Assembly (NCBI GenBank): GCA_030272155.1
Contig: CP126201.1
Coordinates: 1,656,501 to 1,720,500 of the forward strand
Direction of reading: 5' to 3'
DNA: 64,000 nt
Source of the DNA: Tetradesmus obliquus
Lineage: Eukaryota > Chlorophyta > Chlorophyceae > Sphaeropleales > Scenedesmaceae
Shown: one piece after another, positions 1,690 to 64,000 of the stretch
Layout: each line of letters starts with the position of its first letter
How positions within the stretch are numbered: the stretch's first letter is position 1
Made by a program: the position numbers and the translations under genes
Notes under the pieces: model-generated
What the model was told of the DNA's origin: nothing
Database searches by the model: none
Seen by the model: the letters and a program-made list of their open reading frames with translations, nothing else

Positions 1690-2240
1690 CTGCCTCATTG
1701 CTGGTCACAGCACTCCTTCAACCAGCTTTGTTTAAAGCCGCTGATGCTGTCACTGCTGTGTGGCGCCTCCAGCAGCAGCCGCAGCAAGTTGAGTGCCACC
1801 AGCAGCGTTGACCCTTCCTGCATTCTCACGGCCAGCTGTGTCAGATTGACCCACAGCCTGCTGAGCAAAACACTTGCGACATGACACACAGACCACAATG
1901 AAGCGCTAGTGGCTGTGCGCCTTGTCGCTGCTGTGCTTGTGCCCATGCCCTGCTGCTGCTGCCTTCTTTGCTCCGCTGTTGCTGCTGCTGCTGCTGCTGC
2001 TGCTGTGCGGCACCTTCAGCAGCAGCTGCCACTGCTGTGCGCCTTCAGCAGCAGCTGCAGCGAGTTGAGTGCTACCAGCAGCGTTGAGCCCTCGTGCAGC
2101 GTCACCGCCAGCTGCGTCACATCGACGCACAGCACAACAAATCTGCAACGTGACACACCGACCAGATTGAAGCGCTAGTGGCTGTGCGCCTTGTCGCTGC
2201 TGTGCTTGTGCCCATGCCCTGCTGCTGCTGCCTTCTTTGC

Positions 2241-2281
<41 letters not shown>

Positions 2282-2446
2282 GCGGCGCCTTCAGCAGCAG
2301 CTGCCACTGCTGTGCGCCTTCAGCAGCAGCTGGATTGCGTGCCACTAGCAGCGTTGAGCCCTCGTGCAGCGTCACCGCCAGCTGCGTCACATCGACGCAC
2401 AGCACAACAAAGCTGCAACATGACACACAGACCAGAACATGAAGCG
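1690..2446 (-). repeat. Three tandem copies of the HMA1 terminal exon
   Basis: Downstream of the HMA1 stop codon there are three further partial copies of its last exon, at about 1,700-1,945, 1,906-2,178 and 2,175-2,426. Each encodes a variant of the LHEGSTLLVA motif followed by a CAG/CTG-rich stretch; the two nearer the gene also repeat the histidine-rich tail (GHGHKHSSDKAHSH). The unit length is about 270 bp. The copies lack the first part of the exon (NLALALASVAVATLPT) and differ in triplet number. They may be transcribed as 3' UTR or used as alternative ends, but nothing in the sequence shows use. Confidence 0.8.
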
Positions 2447-3732
2447 CTAGTGGCTGTGCGCCTTGTCGCTGCTGTGCTTGTGCCCATGCCCTGCTGCTGC
2501 TGCCCCCTTTGCTCCGCTGCTGCTGCTGTCACTGCTGTGCGGCGCCTCCAGCAGCAAACGCAGCGAGTTAAGCGCTACCAGCAGCGTTGAGCCCTCGTGT
2601 AGCGTCACCGCTAGCCACAGCGGAAACAGCCCTGCCACAGTGGGCAGCGTGGCCACAGCAACAGAGGCCAGCGCCAGCGCAAGGTTCTGCGGGCAGTATG
2701 GCAAAAAGGGGGCACAGGGGATGAATCAGTGGGCAGCGTGGTTACAGCAACTCAGGCTAGCGCCAGCGCAAGGTTCTGCGAGCAGCACGGCAAAGGCACG
2801 TGCACATGCAGAGTCAGCAGCAGCAGCAGCAGCAGCAGCAGTAGCAGCAGCGCATAGCACAGTGTCACAGGGGCTGTGATAAGTGGAAGGGTGTCAGTTT
2901 CTCGCTCGTGTATCAGACCAATGATGGACGGGTGGGCAGCAGCATGTTTTGAAGCTCGGCCTACTACGAATTGAGATGCAGAAAGACAGTGATCTAATGC
3001 GTGGTTGAAGCCTTGGGGTATCCAGGTACCAATGCAGAATAATTGTGTTTTGGATTGTGCGGCTGTGGTGTATAGGTGTATGGCAGTCTGATGCCACGTC
3101 GCCGCCTACCTGCTGCAGCATGAGGTGGGTCCGGTCCGCCGGCCTGAACAGCCAGGGCAGGCTGCTGATGCCCTGCCTGTTGACGAGCACATATCCGTGT
3201 ACGTACTAAGATTGTTTTGTCATTGTCACTGACAGTGTTTACAAGGTCATCCCTCACCTGCTGCAGGATGACGTGGGTCTGGTCCGCCAGCCTGAACAGC
3301 CAGGGCAGGCTGCTGATGTCCTGCCTGGTGACGAGCACATATCTGTGGACGTACTAAGATTGTTTTGTCATTGTCACTGACAGTGTTTACAGGGTCACCC
3401 CTCACCTGCTGCAGGATGACGTGTGTCTGGTCCGCCAGCCTGAACAGCCACGGCAGGCTGGTGATGCCCTGCCCGTTGATGCACACTCTGTTGCAAGTGA
3501 TAATACTGCAGTTATTGTCAATGACACGATGAAAATGGGAAACCAGTGTCATGCCTCACCTGCTGCAGGATGACGTGTGTCCTGTCGGCCAGCCGGAACA
3601 GCCACGGCAGGCTGGTGATGCCCTGCCCATTGAGCACGATGATGTCGGCAGCAGCAGCCACCATGTCTTTTGGCGTGGACGCGATCGCCACACCGACCTG
3701 AGGAGTGAGGCGACAGCAGCAGCAGCAGAAGA

Positions 3733-3794
<62 letters not shown>

Positions 3795-6573
3795 TGACAT
3801 CAGCATCAGAGCAAGCACGGCAATGTCGGCCGCAGCAGCAACCATGTCCTTTGAGGTGAACGCGATGGCCACGCCAACCTGAGGGTGGGGCGGCAGCAGC
3901 AGCAGCAGCACCAGCAGCATGAGGGGCAGCAGCAGAGCTCGATCGTGCCGTCGGCAGCAGCCACCGTGTCTTTTGGCGTGGATGCCATCGCCACGCCAAC
4001 CTGAGGGGTGGGGCAGCAGCAGCAGCAGCAGCAGCAGCGTGCATAATACACAGGGGGCAGCAGCAGGATACACGGGGGCGGCGTCATTGGCAGCGCAAAG
4101 GAGAACCAAAGAGCATGCAGGCGGAAGCAGACACTGCCTAGCGCATGCACACAAACAGCGCAGGTACTATTTATTGTGCAGCTGTATGGCTGGTTTTGAA
4201 GCACCGCTCTTGACCAAACAGCAGAGAAGCCTGCAGTGCAGCGCCGACAACAAGTGTGGCCGTACAGTACTTTCAGAAGAAACACCACCGCGCCGCAGCA
4301 CCGCACCTGTGCTGCTGGTGGCGCAGGCGCATCATTGATGCCGTCCCCGGCCATCAGCAGCACAAACAATAGTATGATACACAGCAAGTTTTTTGCAATG
4401 CCAAAAAACACCAACAAAATGCAGCGGGTGCACAACCCGCACCTGTGCTGCTGCTAGCGCAGGTGCGTCATCAATGCAACCCCACCATAGAGCAAAGGAC
4501 ACAAGCTTGCAAGGCAGCACGACAGCAACTGTGGGTGCACTAGCCATCAACTTGACGCACCTGTGCTGCTGCTAGTGCCGGTGCGTCATTGATGCCATCA
4601 CCAGCCATCAGCAGGCCCCCAGCACCACTTTGAGAAGACTTGAACACACAAATCAACTTGCTGGCTTGCAACGCAGCACAGCAGACACTATAACAGTATA
4701 GCAATCAACTTGCCGCACCTGTGCTGCCGCCAGTGCCGGTGCGTCATTGATGCCATCACCAGCCATCAGCAGGACCCCACTTTGAAAAGGCTAAAAGCAC
4801 AGAAGCTGTCAACACAGCACATACACCATAAACTTGACGCACCTGTGCTGCTGCTAGTGCCGGTGCGTCATTGATGCCATCACCAGCCATCAGCAGGCCC
4901 CCAGCGCCAGTGCCGCGCTGCCCCGGGCCTGCCGCCGCTGCTGCTGCTGCAGCTGCATTTGTAACGTACGCCAGCTTGTCTTCAGGCTTGAGGCCTGCCC
5001 TGTACTGGCTGATGCCGACAGCACCTGCCACTGCCTGCGCAACGCGCTGGTTGTCACCTGGAAAAACAGACAAACAAGAAAGCACAAGGCAGTTTGGTGT
5101 TCAGGAGTTGGGGTGAAGTCACTGGCTGATGCCCACAGCGCCGGCCACTGCCTGCGCCACGCGCTGGTTGTCACCTGTTTCAGGTTGGTTGAAAAAACAC
5201 AAGGGGTGTTGGTTACTTTCTAGATCAGTAGTCCTGACGCCGACGGCGCCGGCCACTGCTTGCGCCACGCGCAATTGTCATCTTTTGTTGGGCAAAAAAC
5301 GTGCATTGGTAAGAATGTGCGTTAGTGACGTATGCCAGCTTGTCTGCCGGCTTGAGGCCTGCCCTGTACTGGCTGATGCCTACAGCGCCGGCCACTGCCT
5401 GCGCCACGCGCTGGTTGTCACCTGGTTGAAGAAACACAATAAAACAGAAGCACAAGGCGGTTGTTATTCAGGTGGCGTCAATCGCCGATGCCGACGGCGC
5501 AAGCTTCAGCCTGTGCCACGCGCTGGTTGTCACCTGGTCGAAGAAACACAAAAACAGAAGCACAAGGCGGTTGTTGTTCAGGTGGCGTCAATCGCTGACG
5601 CCTACAGCACCGGCCACTGCCTGCGCCACACGCATGTTGTCACCTGTTTGAGTGTTTGTAAACAACCACAAGCGGTACTGTTACTTTGCTGGTGAGGTCG
5701 CTGGCCCTGTGCCGCTGCCTGCACAATGCACTTGTTGTCAACTGGTTGAGGAGGCAAATGCACATACAGAATCAACAGCATGACCGCTTCGACTCAGCAG
5801 CAGCCGGGCTGCTGCCCAGCTGCCACTGCCTCGCCAACTGCTGCTCCAGCTGCCCATAATGTCCGTTCCAAAATGCACAACAGCTGACCTGTCAGAATAA
5901 CAACTTCCTTTTGCGCTTGCAAACAGCGCTGCAGCCACGGGCTGCTGCACAGCGGCCACCTGCTGCTGCCTCGCCAACTGCTGCTGCTCTAGCTGCCCAT
6001 AAGGTCCGCCACCCCCATGCACCACAGGTCACCTGTCAGCACTACATCCTTTTGTGTTGCAGCCGCGCTGCTACGCAGCAGCCGCTACCACCGCACAGCA
6101 GCAGCCGTTGCTGCTCTACACTGGTCAACAGTAAAGTACTCACCTGTCAGCATGACCACGTCCTTTTCTGCTGCAGCAGGGCTGCTACCCAGCAGCCAGC
6201 TGCCACTGCTGCGCCACCTGCTGCTGCTCCAGCTGCCGCTCTGCAGCTGCTGCACAGTCGCAGGCACCCCTGCCTGAATCACATCCTCAAAACACAGCAG
6301 CGCCATGTGGCTGGGCTGCCCAGGAGGTCCATAGCTGCCATCTACATCTACACTGCCGCTCACACTGCTACCTGGACTCTGCTGCTGCTGCTGCTGCTGC
6401 TGCTCAATGCTGCTGGTGTGGCTAGCCGGCGCTGCTGCTGCTGTTGCTGCTGTCACCGCGTGTTTGAACGCCTCCTCTTCTTCAAAGGCAAAGGTGGTGG
6501 TGCCGTCTCTGTTGTCCATGCTGCCAAGGAACCGAGCAGGAGAACTGGGGCGGCTCAGCACTGCGCCAGGCCG

Positions 6574-6609
<36 letters not shown>

Positions 6610-6711
6610 AACAGGCCTGCTGCTGCTGCTGCTGCTACTGGGGTTAGCAGCACCATCCAAGATGACAGCCATGTCTGGCTGCTCCAGCTCTGGCAGCGGC
6701 GGCAAGCTTTC

Positions 6712-6742
<31 letters not shown>

Positions 6743-7149
6743 ACTGCTGCAGGATCAGGCTGCTGCTGCTGAGTTGGCAGCAGCTGGCTGACGCTTAGCA
6801 GCGCTGTTGCTCTGCTAGGCCTGTCCGTGTGCTGCTTCATCAGCACGTCCAGCTGTGACACTGTCCTGTCACTTGTTATATAACTGTTAATCCAGTCGGC
6901 GGCCCCGAACCGCACATGCACAGGCTCAAACTCTCCGATGCGGCAGACTCCCTGAACCCCGCTGCCTGGGACCTGCTCAAATGACAAAACCGCCACATCA
7001 CCGTCCACATGTGGTGCTGAGTCAACCATGGCCCGGGACACCGGGTGATTACTCAGCCGGGACAGTGCCACTGCACACTTCAGTGCCAGCTCATCAAATG
7101 GGACACCTCCTAGGGGTGCACCCAATGCTGCTGCTGCTGCCGGCGGCTG

Positions 7150-7180
<31 letters not shown>

Positions 7181-7336
7181 TGCCGGCGGTGCTCGTAGTC
7201 ATCCTCGTCAAATGACGACTCAAATGACGAGGATGATGAGTAACCCGTAGTAGTGCCAATGGCAGCGCTGCCACCTGTCATCTTTTTGCAGATCTCAGTG
7301 AGCCCCTCCATTGCTCGCACATGAATCCACCCACTG

Positions 7337-7367
<31 letters not shown>

Positions 7368-10300
7368 CGCCGGCTGCTGCTGCTGCTGCTGAACCCTCAG
7401 GTTTCAGGTTGAACACAAAACCCTCGGCGAGGTTCATGGAGCCGGTTGTTATGGTGCCTGTCTTATCCAGCGCTATGGTCTTGCATGCTGCTAGGGCGTC
7501 TAGCGCAGCACCAGACTTGATCAGGATGCCCTTTGATGTGATGGCAGCGATTGCACAGGCATATGCCAGCGGCACAAGCGCCAGCGCACACGGGGAACCT
7601 GTATCACAGCAGTGCGGAAGAAACTGTGTTTTGAATGGTATGGCAGCAATTGCGCAGGCATATGCCAGCGGCACGAGTGCCAGCGCACAGGGCGACCCTG
7701 CGCAACAGCAGTGCAGGTGACATGGCAAATGAATGAATCGGAATGTGATGGCAGCAGATGCACAGGCATATGCCAGCGGCACCAGCGCCAGCGCACAGGG
7801 CGACCCTGCGCCACAGCAGTGCAGGCGAGTGGCAGCAGCGCATGTAAGCAGCATGTGTTGTCCTTGAAATGTGCTGCCACCCCACTTGCAGGCAGCGTGC
7901 CCCTTACCACAGCACAGTACAGCCCGGCACAGGCCAACATAGCACGGAACAGCACAGCACCAGGGCTACAGCACGGCCAGAGGATTGATTGACACTTTCA
8001 TAGGAAAACATAAACCGTCGTTTTGTATTGCACAAAATGCCGCCGCACCTGCAGTCAGCACGCCCATGGCTCGATACAGAGCGCCTCTGTCTCCCAAAAA
8101 GAGCACCCCCAGCAGCGGCAACAGCACAGCACCAGCACCACAGCCCAGCACCACACCATCACACACGTACCTGCAGTCAGCACGCCCATGGCCCCGTACA
8201 GTGCCCCTTTATCTTGTCAAACATGCAACCCCAGCCGCGCAGGGGCAGCAGCACAGCACCAGCACCACAGCCCAGCATCACACCACACCAACAGTTACGT
8301 ACCTGCAGTCAGCACGCCCATGGCCCCGTACAGTCAATTCTTCCACAGCCACAGCCCAGCACACCACAGTCCTAAACACGCCTCTTGTCATCACAGCCGC
8401 ACCTGCAGTGAGCACGCCCATGGCCCTGTACAGTCCCCCTCTGTCTCCCAGGAAAGGCACCCCCAGCAGCGGCAGCACAACAGCAATGCTACAGCCCAGC
8501 ATCACAACACACCACCAAACACGTACCTGCAGTCAGCACGCCCATGGCCCTGTACAGCATTCCCCATCAACAGCCACAGCGCAGCTCATCACACCACAGC
8601 CCTACACAAGTCCCTTGCATCGCAGCCGCATCTGCAGTCAGCACAACAAAGCACAGCAAATTGCCACACACTTACCTGCAGTCAGCACGCCCATGGCTCG
8701 ATATAGCGCTCCTCTGTCTCCCAGAAACGGCACTCCCAGCAGCGGCAGCACAACAGCAATGCTACAGCACAGCACCACACCACACCACCAAACACTTACC
8801 TGCAGTTAGCACGCCCATGGCCCTGTACAGCGCGCCCCTGTCCCCCAGGAAAGGCACTCCCAGCAGCGGCAGCAGCGCTGCTGTTGCCAGCGTAGCGCCG
8901 ATGACTGCCTTGCTCCACACCTCGCCCACACGGTCCAGCCAGCGCGACAGCTGCGGCCGCTGCGCCTGCAGTTTGAATAGTGTTGAAAAGTATGTTAGTA
9001 ACAGCGTAGCGCCGATGACTGCCTTGCTCCACACCTCGCCCACACGGTCCAGCCAGCGCGACAGCTGCGGGCGCTGCCCCTGCAAGCTTGAATTGTGTTA
9101 CATAATTTTGTAAATAAGAAAAGGACAAGGCTGGCGCAAGGTTTGATATGGGTCAAGAGTCGAGCTGAGATGGCTGGCAGCACGTGATGCTGCTGCAGCT
9201 GAACCTCCCCACACAGCAGTGCAGCAGCAACTTGACAAGGTTTAGGTGTATGGCCACAGTGAACTGACAAGCAAAGCATTTTAACTAAAAAAGCTTCAAA
9301 CATGTGTCTGCGTGTGCTACCATCCTCACCTGTGCATCTGCGGCCATCTGAGCAATGCGTGAGGGTGTGCTGTTCTCCGCTGTCGCCTCCACGCGCACCA
9401 CCAGCAGACCATCAGTGCTCAGCGAACCTGGCAGGAAGCAGCAGCAACAGCAGCGGCAGCAGTTGACGCGCTATGAAAACGCTGCAGTGACACCCTCCCG
9501 CTGTGGCCACACACTGTTTGATCTCACAAGATCTTGGCCCCATTCATAGCCCACAATATGCTGCTCACACCGCTGACAACCCGCCTCACGTTAGTGCACT
9601 TTCCAATTTGTTGCGCTCTGCAGTCAAGAACAACACCAGCGTCGCACAGAACCGCGCGTCGGGTCCAGTGTAGGTGGATGCTGGGGCGAGCATCAAGAAC
9701 CATGCTGGTTCAACCGAGCAAGGCAAGCCCTAAAAACCCCTCTGCAGACACCATTTCCGCACCTGCCGGCACTTCTTGGCCAGGCCCCAGCCGCACAGGT
9801 GCGGCTTCCTCACTGATGTGCTGCAGGCTCAGGTTGGCAGTGCCCCAGGTGATGCCTGGCTCACTTGCTCACACAACATAACACAGATTTCAACGAGGAT
9901 GACACAAGAATGGTACAAGCAGCTTGTAAGGAGGATAGTCAGCAGTACACAAAACACAATGTAGCTTAAATATGCCCGCTACGCACCTGCCGGCACCTCC
10001 TGCCCCGGCCCCAGCCGCACGGGCGCTGCTTCGCCGCTGATGTGCTGCAGGCTCAGGTTGGCCGTGCCCCAGGTGATGGTGCCATCTAGCGGCACCTGCT
10101 CTCCGGGGCGCACCAGCACGTGCTGACCCAGCGCCACCGACTCCGCAGGCACCTGCACACCGACACAAACACGACAAGAAATAAATATGAGCGATTTTTT
10201 CAAGGCAAACGGAGGCACGTAGGGTGGAAGGACTTGCCGTGCCCCATGGGTGGTGGCACCTGCTCTCCGGGGCGCACGAGCACATGCTGACCCAGCGCAA

Positions 10301-13300
10301 CCGACTCGGCAGGCACCTGCACAGAAGCACATAGACGACACACAAGTAATGTACATCAAACAGGTGATGTATAACAATTCCTGAAATTGCGGGGCCCCAG
10401 GTGCCGTCCAGGGGCACCTGCTCCCCAGGGCGCACCAGCACATGCCGACCCAGCGCAACTGACTTGGCGGGCACCTGTAAGCAAAAAGGAACACAAGCAG
10501 CCGTACACATAAGCACTGTGCACACAGCGACTCGCACACCACCATCTCTAGCTGAATTGCTTCCCACCCGTCATCATTTGCTATCCCTCCCCAGCGTCCA
10601 CCTGCTGTGTTGTGGCCACGCGTGGCGCGCCGCCCTCGTCAACCTCCACAATGCTTGCCGTGTCAGGCACGCTGTCACAACAGCAGCTGCCAAGCAAGCC
10701 GCGGCAGAGAAGTGCTGCAGCTGCTTCAACCCATTGCTACGCTCAACACACACAGCACTGTGCGCACAGCGGCTCATACCCCACCACCATCTCGCAGGAA
10801 GGTTTCAGACCATTGAATAGCATGAAACAGGTACTACGCATTCGTCCCCACACCTGCTGTGTTGTTGCCACACGTGGCGCGCCACCCTCATCCACCTCCA
10901 CCATGCTTGCCGTGTCGGGCACGCTGTCAAACAGCCGCTGCAGCGAGCCCGCAGCCACCACAGCCCATTGCTACCCACACACCAGGCACAGCACTGTGCG
11001 CACAGCGATTCACGCCCCACCACCGTCTTGCAAGGATATTTCAGACGATTGACTAGCATGAAACAGATACTACACGTCCCACACCTGCTGTGTTGTTGCC
11101 ACGCGCGGCGCGCCGCCTTCATCCACCTCCACCATGCTTGCCGTGTCAGGCACGCTGTCAAACAGCCGCTGTCACACAGACTCTGACAGACAAAAGCTGC
11201 AGCCGCTTTCAAACTTGCCATTTTGCTGCACAAGCAGCTGCGTCACAACCCTCCAGCTTAAACAGCTCCATTCAGCTGCTCCACATCACCTGCTGCGTGG
11301 TGGCCACGCGTGGCGCGCCGCCCTCGTCCACCTCCACCATGCTGGCTGTGTCAGGCACGCTGCCAAACAGCCGCTGCAGCGAGCCAGCCGCCACTGCAAT
11401 CGGCTGCTGCATGCACATAACGCACAGCACTGTGCGCGCAGCGACTCACAACCCACCCCCATCTACACGGAATGTTGCGACCATTGACCAGCATGAAACA
11501 GGTACTACACGTTCGTCCCCACACCTGCTGCGTGGTGGCCACGCGAGGTGCGCCGCCTTCGTCAACCTCCACCATGCTTGCTGTGTCGGGCACGCTGTCA
11601 CAGCAGCCGCTGCCAAGCAAGCCGCGGCAGAGAAGTGCTGCAGCCCCTTCAACCCATTGCTACGCTCAACACGCACAGCACTGTGCGCACAGCGACTCAC
11701 ACCCCACCACCAACTCGCAGGGATGTCTCAGACCATTGGCTAGCAAGAAACAGAAACTACGCTTTGTCCCAAACCTGCTGTGTTGTGGCCACGCGTGGCG
11801 CGCCGCCTTCGTCAACATCCACCATGCTTGCTCTGTCGGGCACGCTGTCAAACAACCGCTGCCAAAACAGGCTATGACAGACAACAGCTGCAGCCGCTTT
11901 CAAACTTGCCGTTTTGCTGCACAAGCAGCTGCGTCACGACCCTCCAGCTAAAATATATGAAACAGCTCCATGCAGCTCCTCCACATGATACTCCTCTCAC
12001 CTGCTGGGTGGTGGCCACGCGTGGTGCTCCCCCGTCATCCACCTCCACCATGCTGGCTGTGTCGGGCACGCTGTCAAACAGCCGCTGCAGCGAGCCCGCA
12101 GCCACCACAGCCCATTGCTAAGCACACACCAGGCACAGCACTGTGCGCACAGCGATTCACGCCCCACCACCGTCTCGCAGGGATACTTCAGACCATTGAA
12201 CAGCATGAAACAGAAACTTCCCATTCATCCACACACCTGCTGTGTTGTTGCCACGCGGGGTGCTCCCCCTTCATCCACTTCCACCATGCTTGCCGTGTCG
12301 GGCACACTGTCAAACAGCCGCTGCAGCGAGCCAGCAGCCCGCTCAGTGAGCCGGTCCTCCAGCAGGTGGCTCACACGGAACAGCAGCAGCAGCAGCGCAC
12401 CCTATGGCGGGATTGAGGGCAGCAGCAGGCAGGGCAGGGGAAGCCAGGGGGTGGATCAGGCGAGTGAAAGTGCTGCCTAACAACATCATGATAATCATGC
12501 TGCAGTGAGCCTGCAGCCCGCTCAGTGAGCCGGTCCTCCAGCAGGTGGCTCACACGAAACAGCAGCAGCAGCAGCGCACCCTGGTGTGTGCAAGAATGCC
12601 ACAAGCAGCAGGCAGGGCAGGGGTGCCAAGGGGTGTCGGTCAGGCGGAAATGATGCTCGAGGAGCAGCGCAAATAGCAGCAGCGCAAGTGTACCAGACAG
12701 TAATGCTGTTGCAGGAAGTCCACGAAAGCAACATTGCTCACCTCCTGCGCCATGCCCATATATAGCGTGCCAATGACCGACAGCGACATCAGCACGTGCG
12801 TGTCCACCTTGCCCGCTGCTGCTGCCCCCACTGTCTCTGCCAGCTGCGGCACGCCTGAAAACAGGTACGTGACACCCAGCGCGGCCTTACTCAGTGCTGC
12901 TGCTGTGGCTGCTTGCAGGAGGCCCTGTGCTGCACAGATCGGCAGCAGCAGCGCTGCGGCGAAGCATGAAATGCTGGCCACAGTGTATGCTGTGTTGTGC
13001 TCAAAGTGCTCTGCCAGGCTGAAGAGGCCTGTCTTGGCGAGAGCTGAGAGCACTGGGTTGCTGGATGAGCCTGCAGTGAATGCAAAGATGAGAAAAGTAA
13101 GTGATTGTTGAGCAGCGGCGGCTTTGATGAGAGGAGGACACACAAGCGCTGTCTGCTGGTGAGAGCTGAGAGCACTGGGTTGCTGGAAGAGCCTGCATCG
13201 AATGAATGAATGCAAGGGTGACGGAAGTAGGTTGTTGTTGAACAGGAAAGCCTTTAGAGAGGAGAGAAGAGGGATATACAATTGCTGTCTGGTGGTGAGT

Positions 13301-50357: not shown

Positions 50358-50388
<31 letters not shown>

Positions 50389-51874: not shown

Positions 51875-53473
51875 TCAGCACTCATCCTGGTCAGCTGCCT
51901 GATGGCCAGCCGCAGCTGTGTCACTCAGAAACGGCAGCAGCTTGAACCGTCGCCGCTTTGCAGGAACCGCACATGAATCCAACACCCGCTGCAGCAGCTC
52001 AACTACATCAAGCTGCGGCAGCAGGCATGCAGCTAGCCCTTGTAGGTCAACCCCCTGGCTTGCTGCTGCTGCTGCTGCTGATTGACCAACGGAGGCTGCC
52101 ACAGCACCTGCCGCTAGCGGCGACATGCCACCCGCTGCTGCTGCTGCGCTGCTGCTGAGTGGTGTGGCGGCTGCCAGGCCTTGCTGCTGCTGCTGCTGCT
52201 GGGACTGCAGCTCCTGGGAGTTGGCTGCAAAGTGTATGACAGCATCTAGTGCGTCCAGCGCATACTGACACAGCGGGCCCTGCAGCAGCGCAGCAGCAGC
52301 AGCACAGCAGGCGTTGCAAATTGTATACACAATGCATCATCACTGATGCGGTTTGACTTGTTGTGAAATCAGCATGTAAGAACTTGCAGCAGTGACAACC
52401 CAGCATATAACTCACAGTGGCAGACTGCATGCCTTTGCCTCGTCCCTCTTGTTAATTTACACGCTTAAACCACATGTTAACACCACCGATTGCGTCCCAC
52501 TCTCCCTTGGCATCACACACAGCAACTTGCTAGACAGCATCATTTCTGGCATTGTTTGTTCTGTTGCAGCTAGCATACGTGGCTGAGGTTAACAATAGGG
52601 CTTACGGCAGCATCCAGCAGCAGCACTGGCATAACATGTAGATGACATCTGTGTTACATTTGAATTTTGAGTTTAAATAGCATTCAAATAACAACAGTCA
52701 GCTCACCTGGCTCAGATTGACAAGGGGCCTGATGAAGGCAGCATCCAGCAGCAGCGCTGGTGCAAAAATCTTCCAGGCACGTGTCAACAGCATTCACATC
52801 ACAGCTGAACGAGATACTCGCCCTCACCTGGCTCAGGTTCACAATTGGGCTGATGAAAGCAGCATCCAGCAGCAGCGCTGACCCTGCCGGCCCCAGCTGC
52901 AGCCCCGGCGTATTAAACAGGCAGCGCAGCAGCAGCAGCACGTGCGGGTGCAGCGCGGCCGCGCCCGGCAGCAGCAGCACACCCATCCAGAAGCGCAGCA
53001 GCCACTCTGCATATGTCGGCAGCAGCGCACGGCTCAGCTGCAAGCATAGCCCCTGCATCAAGTGCAGCAGCGCTGCATTGCTAGGGCTAGAAGGGCTGCC
53101 TGCAGCAAAGCCAGCAGCGCTGTTGCTGCTGCCGGCTAGGTTGCGGCCTGCGGTGCCAATGGCGTGCCGCAGCGCTGGAATGCTGCTGCTGCTACTGCTG
53201 CTGGTGCTGACGCCTGGCTGCCCATGCTGCTGCTGCTGCTGCTGCTGCTGCTGGCCTTGCTGTGAAGCTTTGCCTTGCTGTTGCTGCTGCTGTTGTCCGA
53301 GGTTGCCTATCCTGCTGCTGCTGTTACTATGGCTGGCAAGTGCCGCATTCATGTTGAGGTTTGATGTGAACTGTTGCAGCTTGCTGCCGAGCTCATGAAG
53401 GCCCTGGCTGCTGCATGCAGCCGACAGTGTTGCCATGCACTCCTGCAGCAATGGATGTTGCACGGGTACATAC

Positions 53474-53507
<34 letters not shown>

Positions 53508-53619
53508 GCAGCAGAGGGTCAGCACAGGTTTTCCAGCTCATGAAGGCCCTGGCTGCTGCATGCGGCCGACAGCGTCACCATGCACTCCTGCAGCGTTGAA
53601 TGTCGCACACGCACATAAT

Positions 53620-53658
<39 letters not shown>

Positions 53659-54466
53659 AGTTTGCACCGTGCTGGCATTTTCTCCCAGAAACGTGATCCT
53701 GCACCCCCTGCACAGAATCAGAGCAGCTGCGTCCCATGATGCGATGTGGCTGCCGCCACCACACCTGTCACGCGACAAGCATCACCACCACCCACATGTA
53801 CGTCAGCTGTCACACACAACACCTACAGCTCACCTGCAGTGCCTCAAGCAGCTCTGATCCTGGGTCCAGGCAACCCAGCTGGCTGCAGAAATTCGGCACC
53901 AGAGCAGCGATCCTCACTGCCACATCCAACCCCAAATCATCCAAGTTAACAAGCAACAGAATTACTCACCTGCAGCGCCTCCAGCAGCTCTGATCCCGGC
54001 TCCAGCTGCCCCAGCTGGCTGCAGAAAAACGGCACCAGCGCAGCAATGCTCACAAGCATGTACATAGTCCTTCCCAGCACTAGGACTCACCTGGAGCGCC
54101 TCCAGCAGCTCTGATCTCGGCTCCAGGCAACCCAACTGGCTGCAAAAGAATGGAACCAGCGCAGTAATGCTGACAAGCAGCTGGCCATGCCTATGCCAAC
54201 TAATCCGAGTAATCCAGCAACAGGATTACTCACCTGCAGCGCTTGCAGCAGCTCACATCCCGGCTCCAGGCAACCCAGCTGGCTGCAGAAAAACGGCACC
54301 AGAGCAGCAATGCTGACAAGCAGCTGTCCATGCCTGTGGCCCAACAGACTCTGCGAGACAGCCCTGCTGCCAGGCAGCTTTCTAGCAGCAGCAGCAGCAG
54401 CAGCAGCACCGCCACCAGGCATCAAAGAAGACCATGCTGCCCAGCTGCTGCTGAGGCCAGGAGAGT

Positions 54467-54497
<31 letters not shown>

Positions 54498-54603
54498 AGA
54501 GCGAGACTGCCGGTGCGCTGGTGTGCTGCTGCCGGGGTGGTGCCGGCTCGCTGCTGATGTGCCGTAGCTGCTGCTGCTGAGCGTGTGGCTGTGGCCGTGG
54601 CTT

Positions 54604-54648
<45 letters not shown>

Positions 54649-57600
54649 CTGGTGCCGAAACCACGGAGCTCTGGTGCACTACGAGACACAGCAGACGCAT
54701 CCGCATCGTCACCTGGCTGCTGCTGCTGCTGCTGTGCAGGATGCGGCGATTGCTGCTGCTGCTGCTGCCGCCGCTGCCCAGCAGCCACCTGCGCCTGCAA
54801 GTGCTCCTGCTGCAATGATGCTGCTCCAAAGCGTGCATTGCGCCCCGGCCTTGCTGCTGCTGCAGACGCCATGCCAGCTAGCACTGCTACGCTGTCCCTA
54901 CTGCTGCTGCGTGACGGTGTGAATGTCGTTGCTCTGCTGCCCGTCCTACTGCTGCTCAAACTGCTCCCAGGCGACCCTGGCCGCAGCTGCTGCTGCTGCC
55001 TGCTGCTTCTGACTATACCACCCTGCTGCTGCTGCTGCTGCGCTGCTGCAGCTTGATCCCTACTTCCCATTTCAGTGTCATATGCTCCAGGGGCCTGCAT
55101 TGGCAAACCTCCCCCTGCTACTGCTGCTGTTGCTGCAGGCAGCTGGCACAATCCTCGAGCCAGCAGCGTTAGCAGCTGCACAGTGGGAAGCTGCGTATCA
55201 GCAGCTAATAAACCCTTAAGCAGCACCTGCTGCACAGCAATCATGTGGTGCGCAGGGCCATCTGGCCCCCGCTCAGGCCACGGCAGAAGTGCAGCAACTG
55301 CCCAAGGCATTGGGGTCCCACCAGAGGGCTCCGCACCACCCACAAAACTCTGAACACTGGACGACACAGACTGCGCTGCTGCTGCTGCTGCTCGTGCATT
55401 GCCAGATGCACGGCCCTGGCCGTAGCTCCCCCTGTTTGCTGCGTCACCCCAGCTGCTACTAGCTGCTGCTGCTGCTTTGTCAGCGGCATTGCCTGCATCG
55501 CTCATGTCAGCCTGCTGTCCTGATCGTACTTTGCTGGCAGCCTTGCTGCTGCTGCTGTCCAGCCAGCTGCTGCCAAACTGTGTGGCTGCAAGCAGCTGCT
55601 GAAGCTGCGCAGGGTCTGCTGCTGGTGCTGCTGCGAGCAGCACATTCTGTGTGGTGCTGTCATGCATCGGCAGCTGCTGCAGGCAGGTTGACAGTAGGAT
55701 GAGCGCCTGCTGGTAGATGTGCACGTAGCTGGTGAAGCACAGCAGCAGCGAAGACCAGAACACCTGCAGCAGCAGCAGCGGCAGCAGCAGCGGCAGCAGC
55801 AGCAGCAGGATGAGCGCCTGCTGGTAGATGTGCACGTAGCTGGTGAAGCACAGCAGCAGCGAACGACCAGAAGACCTGCAGCAGCAGCAGCAGCAGCAGC
55901 ATGAGAGCACAGCAGAATGAGGTTCAGGATAAGCAATGCGTGACGCACCCCTGCGTGCGGCAGAATCGCGAGTAAACAACAACACATGTAGCACAACAGC
56001 GTGACAAGCTGTGCACACAGGCTCAAGCCATCACCCGTGGGTACAGCAGCAGTTTGCGTGCCGGCGGCGCTATCACCACGCTGCGCAGCGTGAGCAGCAG
56101 CTCCAGCGCTACCTCAATGTACGAGTAGCGCCACTGGCAATGCACATACACCCTGTGACCATGCTGCGCAGCCCTGCTTTAAAAACCAAGGGACCAAGTT
56201 TTATAGGGCAAATACCCCAGGCACATGCACCAACAAACAGAAACACAGCTGAGCTTGATGTGCAGCAACCTTTGTTTCTTCGTTCACCCTACCTGTGGGT
56301 ACAGCAGCAGCTTGCGTGCCGGCAGCGCCTCCTCCCTCGCGACACATTTGGCAATGCACATAACCCACATCACGCCAATTAGGCTGCGCAGCGTGAGCAG
56401 CAGCTCCAGCGCCACCTCCCTCGCAACACATTTGGCAATGCACATAACCCACATCACGCCTGTAACTGCAACACACAAAGCAGGAAACACACATAGCGAT
56501 ACACACAATCACAGCCAGCACAAGCACACCCTGCGCTGATTCACCTGAGGGTACAGCAGCAGCTTGGGAGCCGGCAGCGCTTCCACCAAACTGCGCAGCG
56601 TGAGCAGCAGCTCCAGCGCTACCTCCCTGGCAACGCAGCTGGCAATGCACACAAACCCACACAGATGCTGCGCACAAACAATCTGCGCTGCCGGCCGACC
56701 AGCACAAGGCTCGTTAGAGCAGCCAGCCAACCGCCACATACACAAGCACATTGATTGCATCAGCACAGGCTTGTCTACTCGCCTGAGGGTACAGCAGCAG
56801 CTTGCGTGCTGGCAGCGCCTCAACCAAGCTGCGCAGTGTGAGCAGCAGCTCCAGCGCCACCTCCCTTGCAACGTGTGAGGCATCAGCAGCCGCCAGGCAC
56901 TGCTGCAGGCAGGCCAGCAGCGTGCTGCACATGTCTGCAGTAAGGGGCGGCGCCAGCGCACGCAGCACCTGCAGCAGCAGCATTTACATGTCGTGTTATG
57001 ATCTGATTGTTACGACGGGTGCTGCAGGCAGGCCAGCTGCGTGCCGGCCATGTCGGCGGTCAATGGTGGTGCCAAAGCGCGCAGCACCTGCAGCAGCGAC
57101 AAGCGCAGTGCACGCAAAGTTGTTGTGCTTTGAAAACCTGTTCGATTAGGCAAGTGATGTGACAGGCAGGCCAGCAGCGTGCCGGCCATGTCAGCAGAAA
57201 GGGGCGGCGCCAGCGCACGCAGAACCTGCGGCAGCAACATTGACATGTGTTGTGATACATCAGTGAAGATAAGCAAGTGATGTGGCAGGCAGGCCAGCAG
57301 CGTGGCGGCCATGTCCTGCAGTGAGGGGCGGCGCAAGCGCACACAGCACCTGCAGCAGCGACAGGAGCAGTGCACGCAAAGTTGTTGTGCTTTACAAACA
57401 TGTTATGACAAGCAAGTGATGTGGCAGGCAGGCCAGCAGCGTGCTGTACATGTCTGCAGTAAGGGGCGGCGCCAGCGCACGCAGCAGCAACAGCAGCAGT
57501 GCGCGTGACTGCTGTGTTATGACAGTTTTGTTATAAGCAGCAGGATATATGGCAGGGAAGCCAGCAGCGTGCCGGCTATGTCTGCTGTGAGGGGCGGCGC

Positions 57601-59032
57601 CAGCGCACGCAGCACCTGCAGCAGCAGCATTCACACGCCGCGTTGTGATCTGATTGTTAAGATAGGCAAGTGAAGTTGCAGGCAGGCCAGCAGCGAGGCG
57701 GAGGGACGGCGCCAGCGCGCGCAGCGGTGCGCCATGCAGTAGCGAGTTTGGTTAAGGTTGTCACGGGTGCCTTGTAACGACCTATACAAGGCTTTATGAT
57801 GTGGTCATGACTACTGTTTCTCCTGTTGCCGAGTTCTTTGCCTTGTGCTTGCAGCAAACACCCAGCTCTCTTCCATCTGATCTCCTCCAGCACTGTGCAG
57901 GGCTCCACTGCTGCTGCATATGCCCGATCGGCCTTCATCCTTCTGTCTCAGCCCCAGCCGCACCTGCTGCGGCCTGCAGGCCAGGTGCCTGGTGTGTGTG
58001 TGCAGCGCCCACTCCAGCGCCACACTAACCTCCCCACCTGCCCTAGCCCTAGCTGCACACTTCTGCTGCCTCGACTCAGGCACACAGCATGCGCCCAAAC
58101 TCAACCTAAACCCTGCTAGCTAGCGGACCCTCCTGACGCCCTTTCCAATGCATGTGAGCGATTGTGTGTAGTGTCTGTTTCGTCAAAAGAGGCAAGAGCC
58201 GCCGCACCTGCTGGGACCTGCAGGCCAGGTGTCTGTTGTGGGCGTGCAGCGCCCACTCCAGTGACACACCCACCCAGGCCTCTCCTAGCCCTGGCTCAAA
58301 GGACAGCGCATCCAGGCAGTGCTGCACCATGCCTGCAGAGAGCAACAGAGACAAAACAACAGCATCTGTTCAGTCGACCGACGCCCGGTCTTTGCATGTG
58401 CCACAGTCGTATGATTCACCCAGGCCCGGCCCAAAAAACAGTGCATCCAAGCAGTGCTGCTTTGGTCCAGGGCCAGGCCCTCACATGACCACACGCCTGC
58501 TGCTGCTGCTGCTGCTGCTGCCAGATATGACAACAGGCTGGCGCTCACCTGCGAGTGCTGTTGCGCTGGGCAGCTGCTGCTGCTGGCCCAGGGCCAGACC
58601 CTAGTACGCCCACAATTAAGCTGTTGCTGCTGCCTGCTTCTGCTGCTGCCCCCAACAATACAGTGAGGCGGCTGCTCACCTGGCAGTGCCGTCGCGCTGG
58701 GCAGCTGCTGCTGCTGGCCCAGGGCCAGGTCCTCACATAACCACATGCCAGCTGCTGCTTCTGCTGCTGCTGCTGTCCCAGGGCTAGGTCCTCATAGGCC
58801 CACAAGCCAGCTGCTGCTGCTGCTGCTGCTGCCCGGACATACAATGAGGACTGCGTGCTCCGGCTTCTACACAAGAGCCTGCTACCTTATGCACTAGTGC
58901 AGGCTGCTGCTCGAAGCTCACCTGCAAGAGCTGTTGCGCTGGGCAGCTGCTGCTGCTGGCCCAGGGCCAGGTCCTCGTAGGCCCACAGCCGCCGGCCCTT
59001 CATGGACTGCAGGTACTTGATCAGGTGCGTGG

Positions 59033-59064
<32 letters not shown>

Positions 59065-62000
59065 TGGCAACAGCCCAGCGGTGACTACAAGTGGATGATT
59101 GCAGCAGCAGTGATAGCTCAGTGTGCCTGCAGGCTGCTGTATGAGTTGCGTTTGCTCTGCGATAGCTTCATATGGCTTGTGCTGGGGCTGTGATGACGGT
59201 GATGATGACGGTGATGATGACGATGACGATGATGGTGATGCTGCTGCTGCTGCTGCTGCTGATGACGGTATAACCATCATCATCAACTTCATCATCATCA
59301 CCAGTATCGTCCGTAGTATTATCATTCAAATCGATACTTATGATATCAGCGGTGTCCGTATCGTCATCATTGGTCACCTGCAGGCACTCCACGTGGCCCC
59401 CTTCCTCCTGCCGCAGCTCCAGTTGCCGCGCGCTCAGGCTGTACAGCACGTGCACCAGCAGCTGCGCCGCTGCCCCCGCCACCAGCGCCTCCTCATGGTC
59501 CACCAGCAGCAGGCAGCTGTGGCACAGCAGGGCCAGGTGGCTGCTGAAGTCCTCATCGTGCTCGTACGCAACCTGCGCAGGCAGACAAAAGGACAAACAC
59601 CGGACATTTGAGCGCACACAACAGCTAGAGTCAGGATGTGCATGGCAAGCCGTTTGGCATAAAACGACCTGCATTGTTGGGAGCATAGAGAAGGGAAAAA
59701 ATGTCGAGCAGCAGGGGCCTCCTCATGGCCCACCACCAGCAGCATGAGAAGCAGCAGCAGCGCCAGGTGACTGCTGAAGTCCTCATCATGCTCATACGCG
59801 ACCTAGGCAAGCGAAGGCAGGGACACATTCAGCCGTTGCAAAACCTCGACCAAATCATCCAAGCACTGACCACAGGATAAACCAGACACGCTGCGGTCCT
59901 TCTTCCATCCCTGCTGCGTACTCCCCTAAAATCTTTACTCAACAAACCACCCACCTGAGTCAGCAGGCACAGAGCCAGCTCGGGGCGTGTCACCAGCCCC
60001 CGCAGCACAGGCGCAAGGGGGCTGCCACCTGACCCGCACTGCAATGCTCACCCCTGTCACCTCACACTTTTTGACATCAACAACCCTGACGGAGAAGCAG
60101 ATGCACTGCAGCCCTGTCCCTTTTTAAGAACGTTCATCACATACACATCTATGTCATCACCCACCTCAGTCAGCAGGCATAGCGCCAGCTCCGGCCGCGT
60201 TACCAGGCCACGCAGCACAGGCGAGGGAGGCTCCTGGCCCATGAGCCTCGCTGTGCATTCCCATGCTCTCATGTTTAAACTTGCACTCGTGCATTGAACA
60301 AGAGATAACAACACACAGAGCAAAGGACCCAACCCTGAAGCCAACGTGCAAACCCTTTCCAATCAAACATCACCCACCTCAGTCAGCAAGCACAATGCCA
60401 GCTCCGGCCGCGTTACCAGTCCCCGCAGCACAGGCGAAGGGGGCTCACGGCCAACCTGCCGCGACCCCCTGCGCCCGCGTCTGCCGTCACCCAGCCCACC
60501 ACCCAGACCACCGGCAGCCGCCGCCTGGCCGCCGCCAGCCCCCCAGCCACCGTCATCGCTCGGCTGCTGCTGCTGCTGCTGCTGCCTGCTGCTGTTGTTA
60601 GTGCCACCTGGGTGGAGGCTGTAGTAGCCCCTTAGGCTGAAGCTGCTGCTGCTGCTGCTGCTGCCGGCGGCAGCTGTATTGCTGCTGCTGCCGCGTATGT
60701 TCACTGGCCGTGGCAGGGTTGCTGAGATGCTGCCAGCAGCCGCACTTGGACCACCACCACCTGCTGCTGCTGCTGTTAAGCTGCTGCTGCCAGCAGCTGC
60801 AGCAGGTGTTGCTGCAGCTGGCTGCCCTGCTGCATCACCAGCAGCCGCAATCACATTGCTGCTGGTTTGCCCGTTAATTAACAAGCTGCTGCGGGCGCTG
60901 TCGCTCTGCTGCTGCTCTGCTGCTCCTGATCGCTGCACAGCACCCCCCAGCTGTCCACTCGTACTAGAACTCATCCCCACCCCACCCAAAGCAGCAAGCG
61001 GCGCATCCCGTACATCACTGAATGATCCAGTGGGCGCGCCAGTGCCTGCACCGGGCACGGGCGTCCCTGCCGAGCCTGCTGCCGCGCTGCTGCTGCTGCC
61101 CATGCCAAACACAGAGGTGAATGTGCTGCTGAGTCGCATGCCACGGGTCGCCACGGATGCCTCTGACACACTCCCAATACCTAGCGGAGAACTCTGGCCA
61201 ATGCCTGTTACGCTAGAGTAGTGGTATGGTGTGGTCGTGTATGCGCTGCTGCTGCTGCTGCCAATGCCTCCTCCTGCTGGGGTCGATGGCGGAAAGGAAG
61301 ACCCTAAACCCCCTAGGCCTATGCTAGACAGGATGCCACCAGGTCCTGAGAGGGCCGGCAACCCTGCTGTTAGCGAAGCAAAGCCGCTGCTGCTGCTGCC
61401 AGCAGCAGTAAGGCCCAGTCCCTGGCCTACTGCTGCTACTGTTGAGGCAAGGGAGCCGGTGCTGCTGTAAGCCCACCAGGAGCTAGTTGAGGACCGCAGC
61501 ATGCCGGGGGTGTCCCCTGCTGCTGCTGCTGCTGCCGCTGCTGCATGTGCTGAGGGGTCCTGGCAAATCTGATAGCATGACACTGCAGTAACAGCAGCAG
61601 CAGCAGGAGCGGCGGCCACAGCAGCAAGATGAGTTGCCGCAGGGACGTAAGCAGCACAATGCGCATGCAGAAACGTGTCAGCTGTGGTTGGTTGATGTGA
61701 GACTTGACAGACAACAAACCCTACATTTACAACCCCACCATAACCATGTTAGAATCAAGCAGCATCATTGCATTCCTACATCTTCCATACCTGCAGCGTC
61801 GCATGCCAGTACATCAGCAAACTGCAGCGGCGCTCCGACAGACAGGTCACCGCCAGCAGCAGCAGCAGCAGCAGCAGCACTGCTGCCGCTATTGCCGCCC
61901 GCTGGCTTCTCCTCGTGCAGCTGCAGGCTGATCTCATACACCAGGTGGTCGATGGTCTGCTGCTGGATACAGCCTACAGTCCCTACGCTGCTTCAAGAAA

Positions 62001-63800
62001 TACCCTCAAAACAAACGCAGACAAGACAACCCAAAAGCAGCACCATCCTTGAAACTTTCCATACCTGCAGCGTCGCACGCCAGTACATCAGCAAACTGCA
62101 GCGGCGCTCCGCCAGCCAGGCCGCCGCCAGCAGCAGCAGCAGCAGCAGCAGCACTGCTGCCGCTATTGCCGCCTGCTGGCTCCTCCTCATGCAGCTGCAG
62201 GCTGATCTCATACACCAGATGGTCAATGGTCTGCTGCGGGCTGATGCGCGCAAGATAAAGGCAGATGCGCTTGCTGACCCCTAAGTATTCCAGCATGGAT
62301 GTGAGCTCCTGCAAAGAGGAACAAACCAGCAGCAGCAGCAGCATGTGTAAAGCACTGGGCATGTGTGCGAGGTAAATGCAGGTGCGCCTGCTGACCCCAA
62401 AGTATTCCAGCATGGATGTGAGCTCCTGCAAAGAGGAACAAACCAGCAGCAGTAGCAGCAGCATGTGTGAAGCACTGAGCATGTGTGCGAGGTAGATGCA
62501 GATGCGCTTGCTGACGCCAAGGTACTCCAGCGTGGTTGTGAGCTCCTGCAAATAGACAGACACCCGCAGAAGAAGCAGCACTAGCAGGTGTTGAGCACTG
62601 GGCATACTTATGCTAGGTGGAGGCAGATACGCTTGCTGACGCCCAGATACTCCAGCATTGACGTCAGCTCCTGTAATTGTGAATAAAGTAAGCCAGCAAA
62701 AGTACCGGCAGCAGCAGTAGGTAAAGGGTGGGGTTAGGGTTTACTACTAAACCCAAAACCTAACCTAAAACCCTAGGTAAAGGGTATGTGTGCGTGACAG
62801 GTGGAGGCAGATGCGCTTGCTGAAACCAAGGTACTCCAGCATTGAGGTGAGCTCCTGAAGGATGTAGGAGAGAGATAAGCAGCAACAGCAGCAGCAGCAA
62901 CAGCAGCAGCAGGTGTTGAGTACTGGGTGTGTGTGCTAGGTACAGGCAGATGCGCTTGCTGACGCCAAGGTTCTCCAGCATCTGTGTGTCACCTCGCACC
63001 TGGCAGGCCATGGGTGTGCCCAGGCTGGCAAGGAAGTCCAGCATAGGGATGATGTTGCCATGCACACATCACGGACTGTTAAAGCACTTCACGAGCATGC
63101 AGTACTGCAACAAACATACATATCACCACGCATCTGGCAAGCCATATGTGTGCAAAGGCTGGCCGAGACGTGCGGCATGGGTTGATGTTATCATCCCAAC
63201 TACATTTCCGCAGTACTGCAACGATTAGACGTCTCGACACGCACCTGGCAGGCCATGTGTGTGCCCAGGCTGGCAAGGAAGCCCAGCATAGGGATGATGT
63301 TGCCATGCATGCGCCACAGTTGTGCTGTTATATCACAATCCATCCCAGGAAGCATGCAGGTACCACAGACAGTTTAACTCACACCTGGTGAGCCATTGTG
63401 TGTCACAAAGTGTCAGTCTGAAAAGCACAACTTCAACATAGTACTTGTTGTTTATTACGCACCTGGTAGGCCATGTGTGTGCCCAGGCTGGCCAGGAAGC
63501 CCAGCATAGGAATGATGTTGCCATGCATGCGCCGCAGTTGTGCTGTTACATCACAACCCATCCCAGGAAGCATGCAGGTACCACAGGCATATTGACTCAC
63601 ACCTGATGAGCCATTGTGTGTCACAAAGTGTCAGTCTGAACAGCACAACTTCAACATAATACTTGTTGTTTATCACCCACCTGGTAGGCCATGTGAGTGC
63701 CCAGGCTTGCCAGGAAGTCTAGCATGGGGATGATGTTGCGCCTGTTGGCGGCCAGCGTGGCCCACAGCCGCTCAATCTCCAGCGGCAGCTCGTCACCATG

Positions 63801-63854
<54 letters not shown>

Positions 63855-63932
63855 GCATTAGTGATTGACGCTTGCCGGCCAGCGTGGCCCACAGCCGCTC
63901 AATCTCCAGCGGCAGCTCGTCACCGTGCCTGG

Positions 63933-63970
<38 letters not shown>

Positions 63971-64000
63971 CATCAGTGAATGACGATTGGCAGCCAGCTT
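51875..64000 (-). CDS. Furry/Mor2/Tao3-like cell morphogenesis protein, C-terminal part (5' end outside window)
   Basis: Ten exons are seen: 63801-63681, 62308-62065, 61582-60378, 59572-59378, 59033-58922, 58332-58208, 56968-56783, 55763-54234, 53442-52828 and 52279-51875. They cover about 1,580 codons, all in phase. Order and text follow plant FRY-like proteins: ELPLEIERLWATLAANRRNIIPMLDFL, KRICLYLARISPQQTIDHLVYE, PELALCLLTEVAYEHDEDFSSHL, LLVHVLYSLSARQLEL, RLWAYEDLALGQ, SLEWALHAHNRHLACRS, LLLTLRSLVEAL, VFWSSLLLCFTSYVHIYQQAL, LVSIAALVPFFCSQLG. Furry proteins are giant HEAT/ARM-type scaffolds that work with NDR/LATS kinases in polarity and cell shape. The 61582-60378 exon and much of the 55763-54234 exon are low-complexity Ser/Ala/Gly/Gln. 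The donor after 56783 is GC (GCGAGT). The gene continues beyond position 64,000. Confidence 0.88.
52595..52770 (-). repeat. Downstream copies of the exon ending at 52828
   Basis: A copy of the exon tail (LLLDAAFI-P-VNLSQ plus donor) lies at about 52,705-52,765, and a shorter one near 52,595-52,628. An upstream head copy (ECMVTLSAACSSQGLHEL) lies at 53,526-53,590. Confidence 0.88.
53825..54190 (-). repeat. Downstream copies of the exon ending at 54234
   Basis: Three copies encode ITALVPFFCSQLGCLEP-SELLEALQ-like tails plus donor. They lie at about 54,088-54,180, 53,965-54,058 and 53,830-53,915. One head copy of the same exon (SSLLLCFTSYVHIYQQALI) sits on the other side at 55,803-55,865. Confidence 0.9.
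56025..56645 (-). repeat. Downstream copies of the 56968-56783 exon tail
   Basis: Three main copies encode all or part of EVALELLLTLRSLVEALPARKLLLYPQ. They lie at about 56,543-56,640, 56,290-56,425 and 56,030-56,120. Two end in a GT donor, whereas the real exon ends in GC. Confidence 0.9.
57005..57730 (-). repeat. Upstream copies of the 56968-56783 exon head
   Basis: Six copies of the acceptor plus exon head (VLRALAPPLTADM--TLLACL or variants) lie near 57,025-57,090, 57,165-57,230, 57,285-57,355, 57,430-57,487, 57,555-57,617 and 57,675-57,725. With the downstream array, this one exon has about nine partial copies. Confidence 0.9.
57955..58815 (-). repeat. Copies around the exons at 58332-58208 and 59033-58922
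   Basis: A tail copy of the 58332-58208 exon (VALEWALHTHTRHLACRPQQV) lies at 57,963-58,030. Tail copies of the 59033-58922 exon (ALGQQQQLPSATALPGE-like plus donor) lie at about 58,550-58,605 and 58,668-58,735, with a shorter remnant near 58,775-58,805. Confidence 0.85.
59175..59350. repeat. GATGAC / CATCAT inverted intronic repeat
   Basis: Inside a Furry-like intron, (GATGAC/GATGGT)n at 59,192-59,240 is followed by (CTG)n and then (CATCAT)n at 59,274-59,300. The two sides are complementary and could fold into a hairpin. Confidence 0.8.
59700..60235 (-). repeat. Copies around the 61582-60378 / 59572-59378 junction
   Basis: Two tail copies of the large exon (SPVLRGLVTRPELALCLLTEV or its first-residue variant) lie at 60,165-60,230 and 59,955-60,010. 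One head copy of the next exon (VAYEHDEDFSSHLALL..., degenerate) lies at 59,720-59,805. Confidence 0.88.
61785..61970 (-). repeat. Downstream copy of the 62308-62065 exon tail
   Basis: A copy encodes Q--TIDHLVYEISLQLHEE-PAG...GAPLQFADVLACDAA plus donor, with an internal polyalanine-type (CAG)n tract. A change at QQQTIDH marks its edge. Confidence 0.88.
62365..63000 (-). repeat. Upstream copies of the 62308-62065 exon head
   Basis: Five copies of the acceptor plus ELTSMLEYLGVSKRICLYLA or variants lie near 62,368-62,430, 62,490-62,550, 62,612-62,672, 62,803-62,858 and 62,938-62,985. Confidence 0.9.
62733..62782. repeat. Interstitial telomere-like sequence
   Basis: GGGTTAGGGTTTA is followed within a few bases by CTAAACCC, AAAACC, TAACC and AAAACCCTA, giving a short imperfect inverted pair of TTTAGGG-type repeats. 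It lies in an intron between exon-head copies. TTTAGGG and TTTTAGGG are telomere repeats of plants and green algae. Confidence 0.65.
62985..63540 (-). repeat. Downstream copies of the 63801-63681 exon tail
   Basis: Copies encoding all or part of NIIPMLDFLASLGT-MA-QV plus donor lie near 62,995-63,065, 63,240-63,305 and 63,463-63,530, with a weak remnant near 63,125-63,160. The intron units between them share a block starting CAGTTGTGCTGTTA. A head copy of the same exon (HGDELPLEIERLWATLA) lies upstream at 63,880-63,931. Confidence 0.88.

Follow-up and report, generated by a model that had tools for sequence, protein, structure and literature searches.

Partial exon copies with conserved codons and splice sites in introns of Tetradesmus obliquus genes

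Mutually exclusive tandem exons, such as those of Dscam, are complete tandem exon copies with both splice sites, of which one is spliced at a time. In intron gain by tandem duplication, an AGGT-containing exon segment is duplicated, leaving the head of the next exon after the donor and the tail of the previous exon before the acceptor. Recursive splicing (ratchet) sites and decoy sites are extra intronic acceptors or donors, and in lamprey VLR genes and pilin silent copies, partial cassettes convert an expressed gene. Here we describe partial exon copies in the introns of a 64-kb stretch of the green alga Tetradesmus obliquus (contig CP126201.1, positions 1,656,501 to 1,720,500), hereafter the window, which is part of contig C11 in a genome of 104.66 Mb and 17 contigs.

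Each of these systems resembles the arrays in part. Like mutually exclusive exons, the arrays are intronic tandem exon copies under protein-level constraint, but each copy in the arrays is only part of an exon with one splice site, copies occur both upstream and downstream of the exon, and the residues that they encode are almost those of the exon itself, not alternatives. They share with AGGT intron gain a short tandem duplication of exon sequence and splice sites, whereas here heads follow acceptors and tails precede donors in all 47 junction copies of two genes, a putative HMA1 and a putative MGDG-palmitate desaturase. As with ratchet and decoy sites, there are additional intronic acceptors and donors, some reading AG/GT, yet ratchet sites need no 30–100 nt of codon-constrained exon sequence. 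Like VLR and pilin cassettes, the copies are incomplete coding sequences beside a working gene with which they could exchange, but they store little amino acid diversity and lie in the own introns of housekeeping-looking genes. They are local direct repeats of 100–260 bp, as are minisatellites and local tandem duplications, but are tied to exon junctions and retain coding constraint.

A self-comparison of the kind proposed in a preliminary description of the window (blastn, E ≤ 1e-6, low-complexity filter on) gave 178 direct-repeat high-scoring segment pairs (HSPs), all less than 2 kb apart and 67–100% identical, covering 35% of the window. There were 22 inverted HSPs, consistent with an inverted gene pair at 37–44 and 45–52 kb. 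Exon edges of HMA1 (minus strand) and of the desaturase gene (plus strand), both named from database matches, were set by mapping homologous T. obliquus gene models P0001 and P0121. Edges in the other five multi-exon genes came from our own gene finder and not from homology; the names Gfo/Idh oxidoreductase, PEX2-like, and FURRY-like are provisional, being read from translations only and not from a family search.

The main census covered the 17 exons of HMA1 and the desaturase gene, with four overlaps of an exon with itself and an uncounted number of low-complexity matches dropped. Sixteen of the 54 copies kept were upstream heads (acceptor plus exon head), 31 were downstream tails (exon tail plus donor), and seven were internal pieces (one upstream and six downstream). 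None of the 54 was a complete exon, and none lay on the wrong side. If units of assumed lengths were placed at random, ~15% of the copies should be complete and ~16% internal. The rule in the preliminary description that heads lie upstream and tails downstream thus held without exception among the junction copies, and both kinds flanked seven of the nine HMA1 exons in the census. Exon-derived copies made up 37% of the intron bases in HMA1 and 23% in the desaturase gene. Copies differed from the working exon by about 1–27%, and one array held eight distinct versions. Distances to the nearest copy were two-peaked, at about 105–135 and 225–255 bp, both for the 97 distances measured in the window and for the 70 measured elsewhere. 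A 119-bp satellite with ~96% identical copies (L015, 1–2980) is near the main unit length of the arrays. Five of the 17 exons, of 55–132 nt, were copy-free and the 12 longer ones all had copies; oxidoreductase exons of 125–134 nt, in contrast, do carry copies. Exon copies were also present in the oxidoreductase, PEX2-like, and FURRY-like genes and in the inverted pair, where two of the 27 exons tried had no usable frame and one had no copy. The FURRY-like and PEX2-like genes contain a few copies that look complete, although the exon boundaries of these two genes are less certain.

The head and tail layout is pure geometry, because a unit that spans a junction must yield it if the exon stays intact. 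What goes beyond geometry is the lack of complete copies, which fits selection against them, and the near lack of intron-only repeats. Among 77 local HSPs in HMA1 and the desaturase gene, which are not independent and were therefore given no p-value for placement, 48 touched a working exon, 28 joined two exon copies, and one was intron-only. Under random placement, 28% of units in HMA1 and 47% in the desaturase gene should overlap an exon, leaving 53–72% exon-free, so that random short duplication alone is insufficient to explain the 76 of 77 repeats that include exon-derived sequence. Any intron-only repeats as old as the copies should be recognizable, because the intron parts of the copies still align at about 87–91% identity.

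Codon constraint was measured on 57 junction copies, from 18 exons entered, of which 16 had any copy; families inside one gene are not independent. The ratio of nonsynonymous to synonymous differences per site (pN/pS) was 0.133 between working exons and copies (bootstrap 95%, 0.086–0.21) and 0.197 between copies (0.13–0.435). Mismatches between working exon and copies fell at the three codon positions as 2/5/77 for exon 12237–12401 and 1/2/24 for exon 9987–10152, and a few copies carried stops. Real-copy pN/pS was below 0.5 in 14 of the 16 families with copies, the exceptions being exon 18821 and exon 23500, the latter with a single change. A wider set in other genes gave a weaker signal (0.18–0.41). 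The neutral value expected from the intron substitution spectrum was 0.89, which ruled out base-composition bias as the cause of the low ratios. Neutral copies simulated with serial birth, unequal exchange, and gene conversion, under selection on the working exon only, gave at least 0.49 for real-copy and at least 0.66 for copy-copy comparisons. Simulated copies accepting only 10–20% of functional changes approached the observed ratios, though with a somewhat higher pS. Judged from sequence, the copies look protected by selection and not dead.

Splice signals were compared in 22 head and 33 tail matches, with flanks aligned in register and ungapped. The outer AG was intact in 21 of 22 heads and the GT in 31 of 33 tails, and the +5 base was that of the real exon in 31 of 33 tails. 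Beyond the splice sites, the flanks differed in 36–64% of copies at positions -20 to -5 and in 42–61% at +6 to +20 (one position, 21%). The inner ends of 22 heads and 29 tails were set against random control positions: donors near head ends exceeded the threshold in 18% of cases (control, 30%) and acceptors near tail starts in 34% (control, 49%). With no second splice site at their inner ends, the copies cannot serve as alternative exons of the usual kind. Because inner sites scored below control, the idea that the copies are mini-exons with cryptic splice sites at those ends was also rejected.

Signs of exchange were found in the array of exon 12237–12401, where inner breakpoints fall into three classes that recur along the array. 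Two copies, D236 and D1383, are the same in 85 of 90 inner-flank bases and in the initial 45 bases of the exon part; beyond these, there are ten third-position differences (nine synonymous) in 58 bases, and the introns past the donor are unrelated. This mosaic resembles a crossover within the exon part. P0001 (T. obliquus, strain unstated) equals D236 in 35 of 35 residues and the working exon departs from P0001 at one residue, which suggests copy-to-working-exon recombination. Synonymous divergence was 0.30 versus 0.09–0.13 in aligned flanking introns of the same pairs, a comparison in which local alignment favors similar stretches. Between members of the inverted pair, synonymous differences occurred at 5 of 20 sites in a copy-covered exon versus 7 of 88 in two uncovered exons; the counts are low, and for one of the uncovered exons the reading frame used differs from that in the gene model. 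Head copies in the pair share one breakpoint, so the copy either predates the gene duplication or was exchanged between both genes. Dispersed paralogues were considered as donors and rejected, since a genome-wide DNA search with one exon matched its own array only. Introner elements, by comparison, are near-identical introns scattered through a genome.

Occurrence of exon copies in the genome is patchy. The statement in the preliminary description that copies are found in every multi-exon gene was borne out by all seven in the window and did not extend beyond it. Eight of 18 readable 10-kb samples from contigs C1 and C2 (two more were N) had no local repeat, and repeat density in the samples, counting satellites and two N stretches, was 0.455 HSPs per kb versus 2.78 in the window. 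At least one repeat was present in 8 of 16 arbitrarily placed 3-kb stretches and in three of four further C11 stretches. Frames anchored by hidden Markov models (HMMs) in P-type ATPase and DEAD-helicase exons on other contigs are independent of the gene finder, and their exon edges are not fixed by the HMM. Seven of 20 such segments (5 of 11 loci) had copies over the matched segment, and 13 had none. Of these 25 copies, 17 lay upstream and covered the segment to within 7 bases of its 5' end, and eight lay downstream and covered it to within 7 bases of its 3' end. They carried 108 synonymous and 46 nonsynonymous differences and one stop, with codon positions 31/18/121, so that both the head and tail layout and the third-position excess recurred on other contigs. 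Outside the window, few repeats were testable by a frame-free codon-periodicity scan, which gave no information there.

The leading explanation, unproven and held tentatively, is recycling at the DNA level by exchange between copies and working exon. Units of about 105–135 or 225–255 bp straddling a splice junction would be duplicated in tandem beside the exon. Each copy would comprise a portion of the coding exon plus its outer splice site, with no good inner site, and would be hard to splice in; complete copies are absent probably because they would be spliced in. Unequal crossing-over or gene conversion within the exon part common to copies and working exon would swap sequence between them, and any copy might become one end of the working exon, either on its own chromosome or on another one in the population. 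The copies would thereby also be cleaned by selection on the working exon. The conserved elements, codons and outer splice site, are what a half-exon needs, which argues that copies occasionally join the working exon by recombination, and the working exon would have to take part often enough.

Several results weigh against recycling by exchange. The single-lineage simulations with selection on the working exon only never reached the observed pN/pS, and their minima arose at pS below that observed; exchange inside one lineage is therefore insufficient. Recycling would need either a sexual population with much exchange or an unseen use of the copies. Some families looked near neutral, namely, oxidoreductase exon 18821 (3.5 synonymous and 14.5 nonsynonymous differences) and exon 3560 (copy-copy ratio, 0.71). 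Of nine alignments, four had enough informative sites for a site-compatibility test, and none of these four showed recombination that depended on distance (p = 0.99, 0.20, 0.54, and 1.0). Moreover, exchange does not predict the near absence of intron-only repeats. Two other ideas were set aside by argument only. Contraction load, in which a deletion fuses decoys to the gene, would not select among persisting decoys. Conversion load, or very high species diversity, looked too weak given a rough strain divergence of ~2%, which comes from one exon where P0001 is seemingly in the wrong frame and 8 of 116 residues differ.

The main rival, which we regard as rather unlikely, is use at the RNA level. 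Acceptors and donors of the copies would serve in splicing (alternative ends, stepwise removal, or regulated unproductive splicing), and some products would be translated, so that codons would be selected. Such use fits the conserved splice dinucleotides, +5 base, and codons, and the exon-derived sequence in nearly all local repeats of HMA1 and the desaturase gene suggests retention for a role at junctions. Among 42 acceptors tallied, GT comes directly after the AG in at least 18, as in stepwise splicing, but seamless internal AG/GT joins were no commoner than a GA/TG control (heads, 3 versus 3 of 22; tails, 6 versus 12 of 33). The lack of a second splice site at inner ends speaks against this use, as do 44 copy spacings that show no preference for lengths divisible by three (5 of 15 for heads and 10 of 29 for tails). 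Homologous gene models, which may be predictions only, use each exon once, and a splice-signal role alone would leave conservation in codon phase unexplained.

Birth of copies specifically at junctions appears improbable. Fragments around splice sites, arising from transcription or splicing, would for example be copied back and then refreshed from working exons. This would account for the near absence of intron-only repeats and suits the two-peaked unit length inside and outside the window, but refreshing from the working exon alone gave no pN/pS below 0.49. We give still less credence to inert decoys born by frequent random short tandem duplication, with events inside exons purged, as the preliminary description had proposed. 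The repeats are tandem, strictly local, and direct, their layout is geometric, and some families look nearly neutral. That model, however, predicts many intron-only repeats where one in 77 was seen and neutral ratios well above the 0.13–0.20 observed, and dead decoys do not fit conserved coding parts and splice dinucleotides. An assembly artifact from collapsed or mis-joined haplotypes is highly improbable, as the divergence of the copies and the eight versions in one array would suggest and as the recurrence of the pattern on several contigs also argues.

Features of the window are listed in Table 1. The first HMA1 exon (13439–14305, minus strand) is His-rich in one frame, and the public model P0001 appears to use another. 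A 12-bp-unit array (TTTGACCATGTG type) lies at 18578–18813, beside oxidoreductase exon copies. The inverted paralogous pair (37121–44266, plus strand; 45134–51789, minus strand) has matched stretches that are 90–99% alike in some places and 70–84% in others, contains perfect 20-bp tandem repeats (42894–42955 and 46055–46123), and is a natural control for intron evolution. CAG/CTG (GCA) trinucleotide runs are abundant window-wide, in introns and in coding poly-Ser/Gln/Ala stretches.

Table 1. Working exons, exon copies, and genes in the window
Feature	Position	Strand	Basis or detail
HMA1 working exon (GALLLLLFRVSH...VATTQQ), 165 nt	12237–12401	-	98% to P0001 residues 179–234
Seven tail+donor copies of exon 12237–12401	10602–12103	-	12001–12103, 11775–11862, 11525–11623, 11290–11392, 11085–11171, 10854–10956, 10602–10700
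Acceptor+head copy of exon 12237–12401	12499–12580	-	
HMA1 working exon (VPAESVALGQ...), 166 nt	9987–10152	-	Homologous gene model
Two head copies of exon 9987–10152	10255–10474	-	Exon bases 1–62, 1–75
Tail copy of exon 9987–10152	9763–9854	-	
HMA1 working exon (AQRPQLSRWL...)	8800–8965	-	
Six tail copies of exon 8800–8965	8049–8750	-	
Head copy of exon 8800–8965	9002–9077	-	
HMA1 working exon, GDGINDAP motif	4843–5057	-	
Four head copies and one internal piece of exon 4843–5057	5121–5643	-	
Four tail copies of exon 4843–5057	4307–4779	-	
HMA1 working exon (VGVAIASTPKDM...)	3560–3697	-	
Two head copies of exon 3560–3697	3814–4000	-	
Three tail copies of exon 3560–3697	3110–3484	-	
Two head copies of long HMA1 exon 6144–7598	7631–7803	-	
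Desaturase working exon (VSTHRYHHLH...QFFYK)	24832–24996	+	100% to P0121
Tail copies of exon 24832–24996	25036–25627	+	
Desaturase working exon (FLEIAFLPWL...)	25828–26009	+	
Two tail copies of exon 25828–26009	26098–26298	+	
Oxidoreductase gene (Gfo/Idh-like, name from reading) with exon copies	16145–21525	+	Own gene finder
Oxidoreductase heads and tails	Around exons 16145–16303, 17132–17311, 19747–19880; tails of 20351–20619	+	
Gene-pair member A: head copy and working exon (ALEDGKIYINVHS...)	41308–41633	+	
Gene-pair member B: working exon and two head copies	47594–47935	-	Breakpoint common with member A copy
FURRY-like gene (name from reading) with exon copies	51875–64000	-	Own gene finder

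Exon-copy arrays are a trap for gene finders and annotation. With a weak intron penalty, our own gene finder built a 108-exon model, and a second run still chained copies in frame as extra exons. When a 1600-aa model including copies was searched against proteins, P0001 was the sole one of 24 matches named T. obliquus, and no copy-bearing annotated protein was seen among them. The arrays may be one reason for the long introns of T. obliquus, for which PMC5966456 reports a mean of 462 bp versus 230–302 bp in the four other algae of its table. No published description of such an architecture was found in searches of open-license PMC papers.

Partial intronic exon copies are usually seen as neutral debris or harmful decoys; here, codons and splice sites are kept while the requisites of an exon are missing. 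If exchange is the cause, selection would reach DNA that is not expressed, and recombination between copy and gene would be a measurable selective force. Alternatively, transcripts would employ the copies in a manner not yet described. It is possible, though we say so with reserve, that selection keeps half-exon modules around exons in many genes, either as a standing reserve for rebuilding the working exon or as part of an undescribed form of mRNA assembly, and that exon ends in this alga may thus be redundant and exchangeable.

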